A DNA stretch of 64,000 bases, taken from Aquisalimonas sp. Lineage in GTDB: Bacteria; Pseudomonadota; Gammaproteobacteria; Nitrococcales; Aquisalimonadaceae. A program made the position numbers and the translations under genes. This document shows positions 9,512 through 12,086 of the stretch, piece by piece; position 1 is the stretch's first letter; each line of letters opens with the position of its first letter. Location: positions 1 through 64,000 of the forward strand of contig NZ_SKOG01000002.1 in NCBI RefSeq assembly GCF_007120195.1, given 5' to 3'. Below the pieces are notes generated by a model. The model made no database searches and was not told the origin of the DNA. It saw only the letters and a program-made list of their open reading frames with translations.

Positions 9512-9598
9512 TGGTGCGGGTGGCCGGACTCGAACCGGCACGGGCATAAGCCCAGCAGATTTTAAGTCTGCTATGTCTACCTGTTCCATCACACCCGC
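9512..9598 (-). tRNA. tRNA-Leu (anticodon TAA)
   Basis: The reverse complement folds as an 87-nt class II tRNA: acceptor GCGGGTG, encoded 3' CCA, anticodon stem GCAGA/TCTGC with loop CTTAAAA giving TAA, a long variable arm, and T loop GGTTCGAGTC. In E. coli and Pseudomonas a UAA tRNA-Leu directly follows tRNA-Gly and tRNA-Cys downstream of pgsA. Here it is separated from them by about 2.1 kb of inserted DNA. Confidence 0.97.
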
Positions 9599-9674
9599 GG
9601 TGTCTGCAAGAGGATGCGGATATCCGAACGCTGCCCAATGACCGAAATCCGGTGTGCGGTGACAGCAGTGGCAA

Positions 9675-9724
9675 GGATGGAAGCTCGGGCCGCAGCCGAA
9701 CCGATGTGCCCGGGTTTGCGGCCC
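9675..9724 (-). repeat. Decayed duplicate of the 3' part of tRNA-Cys (probable att site remnant)
   Basis: Aligned without gaps to 11765-11814, these 50 nt match tRNA-Cys at 41 positions by hand count, from three bases past the CCA end back through the T arm to the anticodon stem. Similarity stops at 9724, where the matching position in tRNA-Cys is in the anticodon arm; beyond it identity falls to chance. No 5' half of a tRNA is present, so it is not a tRNA gene. It lies 76 nt from tRNA-Leu, where the native tRNA-Cys 3' end would have been before insertion. This is the displaced-end footprint left by elements that integrate at tRNA 3' ends. Confidence 0.75.
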
Positions 9725-10428
9725 AGCGAAACCGTGATTGTCCCATCAGTCAGCGGTAATGCTATCAGGGGCTTATGCACTCCACAATTGCCGCGCACAA
9801 GGCCCGCACGTGTGGGTGGATCCCAGGGGCGCGGCTCTGCAGGCCGGGCACGTGGGCCCGACATGCCCCGCAGGACAGAGAAGCCCCGCTTCACGCTCGG
9901 CGCAAGCGCGCGAGTGGCGTGCCCGACCCGGGCATGGCAGATTGCACCCTCCTCCCGGGCAAGCACCGTGCACGCCTTGGCGCGACGCCGGAGGCGCTGC
10001 GACCGGCCGTACTGCGGCGCTGCCACAGCGCTGGAGGGCGAGTTCAAGAGAGCCCTCAATGTATCGAAGTCAATGCCCTGGGGGTGGGTTGCCAGGCTTA
10101 GGCACCAGCGGCCCGACGTCACCGCTGGAAAGACATGGGGGTGGAGGCAGTCCCGGGCCAAGCGGCGCGCCTGGTTGAGCTTCTGGCGGCAGCGTGCGGT
10201 GCACTGAATCTGGGCGCCTTGAGGTCTGGGTAGAGACAGTGGAAGATGTCGGTCCAGTTGGGGCAGCAGCTGAAGTGCGTCATCTCTGGCCGTCGCAGCA
10301 CGGCAGCGTGCTTGTCGGCCTCAGGAAGTGCTTGTACAGGGCTTTTCAAGCACGCTTGTAGAGATGACATAAAGAAAAGTGCCGAAACGGGTGACGCCAC
10401 TCATTGGATGATGATGCGAGGAGCGCTT
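9725..10428. other. Gene-poor left part of the tRNA-Cys insert; no recognisable gene
   Basis: About 700 nt between the decayed tRNA-Cys fragment and the YbhN-like gene. Several overlapping ORFs are open on both strands (for example 9589..10161 minus and 9614..10207 plus), as often happens by chance in GC-rich DNA, and none resembles a family I know or has a convincing ribosome binding site. One minus-strand frame contains 'CPACRAAPLGSTHTCGPC', faintly like a ComF zinc finger but only about 66 codons long. I read the stretch as decayed cargo or integrase of the element, without being able to identify it. Confidence 0.4.
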
Positions 10429-11415
10429 ATGGGGGCGTTGTCTCGAGGGGAGAGCAAGACAGTCAGGGGGATTTTTTGGCTAACGCTCAGGGTCTTGGCC
10501 AGCGTCATTCTCCTCGGCCTGGTGCTCCACTTTGCGGGGGCAGACCGGATTGTAGCGTTGATCACGGAGCTAAACGGACTCTATCTTCTCCCCGCGATTC
10601 CGCTAGTCCTTGCATTCAAGTGGTTTGCGGCCCTCAGGCTGAAGCTCCTGGTGAGTCATCTCGGCATGACATTCACCACATGGCAAGTCAACCGTATTAA
10701 CTTCATTTCGGCCTTTTACAGTCTAATGCTTCCGGGTTACATGGCCGGTGGGGCGGTGCGCTGGTACATGCTCTCGCGTGTCAACCAGATGCCAGCGCAG
10801 GCGTTGGCAAGCATTGTTTATGATCGACTCGGTGACACAATCGCGTTGCTGGGACTGGGTTTGTTCGCTTATGTCCTCATCTTGCCTCCGGAGAGCGGGG
10901 CGGCGCGACTGACGCTGAGCATGGTGCTGTTTGGTTTGGTCGTCGGCTATGTGCTGTGCGCGAATGTGCATGTGATAGCGCTAATAAAAAGATGGATGCC
11001 CCTATCCAACGGCAGGATTGGTGCTAGCCTCATCAAACTCATGTCGGCATTTCAGAGTTTCGCAGACTTGCGCCTCGTCGAGCATTTCTGGCTATGGTTC
11101 TGGGCCATCGCGTCGAACCTTCTGAACGGGCTGCTCGTCTTTTGCGTCGCTCAGAGCCTGGGCCTGCCGTTGACCTATCTGGATACGTTATGGGTTGCGG
11201 CCCTCTGGATACTCGCGGGAATGCTCCCAATTTCAATTTCCGGCCTTGGGGTGCGAGAGGGAGCGACCATCGTGATGCTGCTTCCGCTAGGTGTCGAGAC
11301 TGCAGAGGCGGTGGGCTTCTCCCTGCTATTGTTGGTGAGCAGAGACGTCGTTCTGGCGGGGATTGGAGGAATTTTCCTGGCCACCACGCGCGGCGCCCAG
11401 CGTGCCGAGGCTTGA
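10429..11415 (+). CDS. YbhN/AglD-type integral membrane protein (lysylphosphatidylglycerol synthase TM region-like flippase family)
   Basis: A 328-residue membrane protein with about eight hydrophobic segments, beginning 'GIFWLTLRVLASVILLGLVLHF' after a short basic N terminus. The core 'FYSLMLPGYMAGGAVRWYML' and 'YDRLGDTIALLGLGL' and the C-terminal 'GMLPISISGLGVREGA' are typical of the UPF0104/YbhN family, which contains flippase-like proteins of lipid, glycan or cell-surface pathways. Substrate unknown. The ATG at 10429 is preferred because GCGAGGAG lies six bases upstream; the track start at 10246 has none. Its base composition looks lower in GC than its neighbours by eye. It is the only credible gene in the segment between tRNA-Leu and tRNA-Cys. 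Confidence 0.82.
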   Translation: MGALSRGESKTVRGIFWLTLRVLASVILLGLVLHFAGADRIVALITELNGLYLLPAIPLVLAFKWFAALRLKLLVSHLGMTFTTWQVNRINFISAFYSLMLPGYMAGGAVRWYMLSRVNQMPAQALASIVYDRLGDTIALLGLGLFAYVLILPPESGAARLTLSMVLFGLVVGYVLCANVHVIALIKRWMPLSNGRIGASLIKLMSAFQSFADLRLVEHFWLWFWAIASNLLNGLLVFCVAQSLGLPLTYLDTLWVAALWILAGMLPISISGLGVREGATIVMLLPLGVETAEAVGFSLLLLVSRDVVLAGIGGIFLATTRGAQRAEA

Positions 11416-11767
11416 ATCCCCCAGCCCAGGCGTCCGGTGGACGAACACCGGGCCATCCCGATGGTTGGCCACGCGGAATCCTTGCCGGGCCAAACCAACG
11501 ACTGTGACGGCGGGGGCGGGTTAAGCGGACACAACGAACTCCGCTATGATCTCGAGCCAGCGTCGATTCATGGTCTGAGTAGCGTCCATGTCACAGCCGA
11601 AGAGCTCCGGCTGGACGGTGATCATTGGCGTGGCGTCACGGTTATGCCCTGGCTTATGGGTGGTCACCACCGGGGACAGGGTCTGGTGCAAGACGGCAAG
11701 CTGCCTGGGGCCGCGCTAGGTCAGTCGTACGCACTCGCGCGCATGAGCGGCGGCTTGCTGATCTGGA
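11416..11767. other. Intergenic part of the insert, no gene seen
   Basis: About 350 nt from the YbhN-like stop to the tRNA-Cys 3' end. A plus-strand ORF (11437..11985) crosses two tRNA-side features and is not credible. A minus-strand frame of about 65 codons ends with 'MNRRWLEIIAEFVVSA' before a stop; it looks protein-like but I cannot place it. No clear terminator for the YbhN-like gene is visible. Confidence 0.4.
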
Positions 11768-11841
11768 TGGAGGCTCGGGCCGGAATCGAACCGACGTACG
11801 CGGATTTGCAGTCCGCTGCATCACCACTCTGCCACCGAGCC
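11768..11841 (-). tRNA. tRNA-Cys (anticodon GCA)
   Basis: The reverse complement is a 74-nt tRNA with acceptor GGCTCGG, encoded CCA, anticodon arm GCGGA-CTGCAAA-TCCGC (anticodon GCA) and T arm with GGTTCGATTC. It is intact. Its 3' end faces the insert that separates it from tRNA-Leu, and its 3' portion is repeated in decayed form at 9675-9724. Confidence 0.97.
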
Positions 11842-11947: not shown

Positions 11948-11978
11948 GAAAAGCAAACCCCGGCAGGAAGCCGGGGTT
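11948..11978 (-). terminator. Rho-independent terminator after tRNA-Gly
   Basis: On the minus strand a nine-base stem AACCCCGGC/GCCGGGGTT with a TTCCT loop is followed by GCTTTTC. It lies between tRNA-Gly and tRNA-Cys, so read-through from the pgsA/tRNA-Gly transcript into tRNA-Cys may be limited. Alternatively it is a processing hairpin. Confidence 0.55.
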
Positions 11979-12011: not shown

Positions 12012-12086
12012 TGGAGCGGGAAACGAGATTCGAACTCGCGACCCCAACCTTGGCAAGGTTGTGCTCTACCACTGAGCTATTCCCGC
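12012..12086 (-). tRNA. tRNA-Gly (anticodon GCC)
   Basis: The reverse complement is a 75-nt tRNA with acceptor GCGGGAA, encoded CCA, anticodon arm CAACC-TTGCCAA-GGTTG (GCC), and T arm GAGTTCGAATC. It lies 38 nt after the pgsA stop codon in the same direction, the conserved gammaproteobacterial order. Confidence 0.97.

Follow-up and report, generated by a model that had tools for sequence, protein, structure and literature searches.

Layout of the tRNA cluster and the inserted DNA

The window analysed here is a 64,000-nucleotide stretch of an Aquisalimonas sp. genome (contig NZ_SKOG01000002.1), in which the genes for tRNA-Gly, tRNA-Cys and tRNA-Leu lie downstream of pgsA and uvrC. ARAGORN located all three on the minus strand: tRNA-Gly(gcc), the first tRNA of the pgsA-downstream cluster, at 12012..12086, an intact tRNA-Cys(gca) at 11768..11841, and tRNA-Leu(taa) at 9512..9598. 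The first two were also matched by Rfam RF00005, tRNA-Cys with a score of 63 bits, and no second tRNA-Cys was found in the genome. A strong terminator-like hairpin on the minus strand between tRNA-Gly and tRNA-Cys (window 11956-11978) suggests that tRNA-Cys, and formerly also tRNA-Leu, is transcribed apart from tRNA-Gly. A preliminary description of this DNA had pointed out that tRNA-Cys and tRNA-Leu lie far apart; ARAGORN gave the same coordinates for both genes and a distance of 2169 nt between them.

In contrast to this wide separation, the three tRNA genes are kept together in all four congeners (G001-G004), where the spacers between tRNA-Cys and tRNA-Leu measure 86, 79, 78 and 88 nt. The tRNA-Cys of the window is identical to that of all four congeners over 74 of 74 nt. 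Moreover, the 2169-nt DNA between the two tRNA genes had no DNA match in 94 relatives. The short gaps in the congeners, together with this lack of a match, indicate that the insertion is lineage-specific among the available genomes: this species carries it and the four sampled congeners do not. The preliminary description had predicted that some relatives would lack the insert rather than all sharing the same spacing, and this is what the comparison revealed.

The inserted DNA (9725..11764), which splits tRNA-Leu from the cluster, is bounded by the two copies of a direct repeat with a period of 2090 bp, and the intact tRNA-Cys stands at one of its ends. It contains one gene on the plus strand (10429..11415) for a YbhN or LPG_synthase_TM-type flippase-like membrane protein with an intact frame of 328 aa. 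The protein matched PF03706 over its full length (E=1.7e-31, profile positions 3-289 of 302) with 110.3 bits against the curated cut-off of 33.4, and also matched TIGR00374 (E=3.4e-17). The gene has a GC content of 57% and a GC3 of 69%, compared with a window mean of 77% (sd 6). The composition had been called visibly different; the difference exists, although it is mild.

The remaining approximately 1.05 kb of the insert has no assignable content. Neither the 704-nt stretch upstream of the YbhN-type gene (9725..10428) nor the stretch of about 350 nt downstream (11416..11764) produced a Pfam match of weight in six frames, and PHROGs scans of four frames of the larger stretch and one ORF of the smaller gave no match. 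An integrase, an excisionase or a phage gene was not detected in the Pfam and PHROGs scans of the insert's reading frames, in agreement with the preliminary description as far as the integrase is concerned. Its further statement that the element has decayed derives from the scar and not from element genes, since these scans revealed no integrase relic.

We also searched for relatives of the YbhN-type protein. There was no homologue at E<=1e-8 in the order, a search of 368 other genomes of the class at E<=1e-15 was likewise negative, and a pattern scan of genome contigs found none; the best match in a sample of the phylum had 33% identity (E=3e-14). A phage or plasmid origin of the insert was considered and rejected, because neither phages nor plasmids gave a DNA match to the insert, plasmids and viral contigs gave no match to its protein, and no PHROG was recognized.

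A displaced 3' fragment of tRNA-Cys

An independent repeat finder reported a direct repeat of 50 nt with 80% identity and a spacing of 2090 nt, consisting of 9675-9724 and 11765-11814, both read here on the minus strand. The copy at 11765..11814 is an att-like block inside tRNA-Cys, and the maximal-scoring segment extends from nt 28, in the anticodon stem, through the whole anticodon loop to three bases beyond CCA. The copy at 9675..9724 is a displaced and decayed 3' fragment of the same gene. The two copies are identical at 40 of 50 positions; the match and its extent were thus as first described, with one identity fewer than the 41 of 50 originally counted. The similarity ends sharply at nt 28, and the register 5' of this position shows background matching. 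The fragment retains the GCA anticodon and an upper anticodon stem that can pair.

The fragment represents the 3' part of the tRNA, is not internal, and lies downstream of the intact tRNA-Cys in the same orientation. Its CCA is separated from tRNA-Leu by 79 nt. As the corresponding spacers in the congeners are 78-88 nt long, the fragment sits where the native 3' end of tRNA-Cys was, just as the preliminary description had placed it, and its position, orientation and boundary support the integration at the tRNA 3' end proposed there. The sequence at 9599..9674 is presumably the native spacer between tRNA-Cys and tRNA-Leu, judging from its length compared with the congeners; the homology of the 79-nt spacer to the congener spacers is not significant, and most pairs of congeners likewise show little.

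The fragment does not belong to any detectable repeat family of this genome, contrary to what would be expected had the 50-nt copy been part of an unrelated repeat, an outcome the preliminary description had allowed for. A DNA search of the genome with the insert returned the insert itself as the sole match, a weak result because the same search missed tRNA-Cys, probably owing to the longer exact words needed, and could overlook copies as diverged as the fragment. The scan for the tRNA family and the comparison with the 43 tRNA sequences recovered from the genome are better tests.

Ten of the 47 tRNA positions in the fragment are changed, corresponding to a divergence of about 21% (95% interval 11-36%). 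Eight of the ten changes are transitions, and the T-stem pairs 47:63 and 51:59 are broken, a pattern that would be expected for a decaying sequence. The host tRNA must have been working when the element integrated, and the congeners have the same tRNA-Cys sequence, so the ten differences most simply arose afterwards. In simulations, the frame of the YbhN-type gene stayed open in about 0.15% of the runs at the level of drift seen in the fragment and in 6% of the runs at 10% divergence. An intact frame next to a decayed fragment suggests a retained cargo gene; the YbhN-type gene may have been kept by selection or may be a later arrival, the number of sites being too small for proof.

Other insertions at tRNA-Cys and its cluster

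Prophage 05 of Pseudomonas fluorescens Pf-5 is a comparable case: a prophage remnant of 2.6 kb lies in tRNA-Cys, with direct repeats of 84 bp that overlap the anticodon and T loops (PMC2647930). Both are tiny remnants in tRNA-Cys between direct repeats overlapping these two loops. However, prophage 05 still has a tail gene and a truncated integrase, whereas the insert described here has no phage gene, a 50-nt repeat at 80% identity and a YbhN-type cargo gene.

Among the genomes compared, Haliea salexigens DSM 19537 bears a 4.6-kb insertion in the pgsA-linked tRNA-Cys (L130:6919-11507). The tRNA-Cys is followed by a frame of 289 aa with the integrase domains Arm-DNA-bind_3 and Phage_int_M, of which the catalytic part is apparently missing, and a repeat 4.59 kb downstream comprises the final 16 bases of the tRNA and at least 20 bases of identical flank. 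This element shares with ours the same pgsA-linked tRNA-Cys and cluster and the 3' fragment downstream. Unlike ours, it still has integrase domains, and its repeat starts near the T-stem/acceptor junction instead of the anticodon. The repeat copies in H. salexigens are identical over the compared stretch, and the insertion is thus younger than the one described here. In Haliea sp. E1-2-M8 (L128:6930-7013), a 22-nt copy of the tRNA-Cys 3' end lies just 84 nt downstream of tRNA-Cys and may be the scar left by an element that was deleted almost entirely.

The gap between tRNA-Cys and tRNA-Leu is also occupied in other genomes. Both genomes of genus g3 (G006 and G009) have a gene in it that looks by eye like a GGDEF (diguanylate cyclase) gene (L036:9661-11395 and L038:13825-15862, both numbered with tRNA-Cys on the plus strand), and no tRNA-Cys fragment was found in these two gaps. 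Gene gain at this gap therefore does not by itself need an integrase, and more than one route exists. The gap in Gammaproteobacteria S012_109 (L055:6885-9061) measures 2177 nt and holds one ORF of about 660 codons, TPR-like by eye, and long ORFs were seen in the gap of another locus (L105). At two further loci (L097 and L108), the pgsA-linked tRNA-Gly is followed after about 200 nt by long ORFs that look integrase-like by eye, and no tRNA-Cys is seen within 6 kb; the tRNA-Gly of the cluster thus looks like an integration site as well. The pgsA-linked tRNA cluster is a repeated insertion target. Apparent tRNA-Cys 3' fragments at two other loci (L121 and L056) were dismissed, since in the alignment they resembled, by eye, divergent tRNA-Leu genes that ARAGORN had missed. 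At L043:5513-7344 (G020, tRNA-Cys turned to the plus strand), the uvrC match is broken into two directly adjoining segments, one for query residues 2-520 and one for 521-612, which suggests a frameshift or a sequencing error.

Origin of the insertion

The combination of an intact tRNA with a downstream 3' fragment of the same orientation and a boundary at the anticodon is the classic mark of insertion by a tyrosine integrase at the anticodon subsite. In the standard model, attP holds the 3' part of the tRNA; recombination makes the tRNA whole again, and the 3' part that was there before ends up at the opposite end of the element (PMC4383910). We consider it very probable that a mobile element integrated long ago in this way, by site-specific recombination, into a single ancestral tRNA-Cys. 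The attP of the element would have contained the 3' part of a tRNA-Cys gene and recombined with the only such gene in an ancestor of this species, with the crossover presumably inside the anticodon loop. The intact tRNA-Cys would thereby have been rebuilt at the proximal end, while the host's own 3' part, together with the flank native to it, would have been displaced by 2.09 kb to end beside tRNA-Leu, where it was free to drift. The enzyme was almost certainly a tyrosine recombinase, given the geometry and the fact that only such enzymes are known to target tRNA genes (PMC4383910). Since no trace of an integrase was detected, the element would be either a relic that later lost this gene and most others, or small and moved in trans. 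The YbhN-type gene was probably held open because it is useful to the host.

Islands detected by Islander at the anticodon site (site A), which is used by 2083 of the 3919 Islander islands (PMC4383910), resemble the present case in the regenerated tRNA, the downstream 3' fragment in the same orientation and the crossover at the anticodon. An empty site in relatives, a supporting feature for Islander and not a required one, exists in the four congeners with their 78-88 nt gaps. Unlike these islands, our insert has no recognized integrase gene and would fail the Islander integrase filter, and its 2090-bp period is barely over the lower limit of the 2-200 kb range. Lacking an integrase gene, the insert is classified as a remnant or scar rather than an intact element. 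We think it very unlikely that the 2.1-kb unit is a minimal integrase-less cassette of an att site and a membrane-protein gene, mobilised in trans by tRNA-Cys-anticodon-targeting integrases of other elements.

Other explanations do not invoke integration. The 50-nt repeat could have nothing to do with the insertion and reflect chance or the general likeness of tRNAs, given that T-loop and CCA sequences are common to all tRNAs. This was refuted by two controls: 200 dinucleotide shuffles of the insert gave a best 50-mer of 30/50 (mean 26.5) against the observed 40/50, and among the 43 tRNA sequences recovered from the genome tRNA-Cys matched the fragment best (37/47), with the runner-up at 26/47. 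The best match in a reverse-strand control was 28/50. Such a resemblance thus has practically no chance of being the explanation. A tandem duplication of tRNA-Cys, with or without its flank, after which unrelated DNA entered between the copies and the second copy decayed to a pseudo-tRNA, would agree with the preserved GCA anticodon and the pairable upper anticodon stem. A decayed duplicate should, however, hold a similar identity in its 5' half, where the similarity instead stops abruptly at nt 28. Two independent events would also be needed, and the boundary at a known integrase subsite would be a coincidence, so that we regard duplication as improbable.

We give a similarly low probability to illegitimate or homologous gene gain in a permissive gap between tRNA genes, with the fragment imported from the tRNA cluster of another bacterium. 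The genes in the gaps of genus g3 and at L055 and L105, which come without a tRNA-Cys fragment comparable to this one, speak in its favour. Import from another cluster should nevertheless have brought more of the tRNA or its neighbours, and the fragment has a preserved 3' end at the native distance from tRNA-Leu.

Taken as site-specific integration into tRNA-Cys, the feature is an ordinary, well-understood kind of scar, known for a long time from integration at tRNA genes; what chiefly distinguishes it is that it is small, has lost its integrase and has kept a single cargo gene. It illustrates cleanly how new neighbours are acquired by a tRNA gene, with tRNA-Leu parted from a cluster that is compact in congeners and one foreign membrane gene left behind with an intact frame. 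Integrase-less scars of this type are dropped by Islander-type searches, and they are recoverable by comparing tRNA spacing across congeners.
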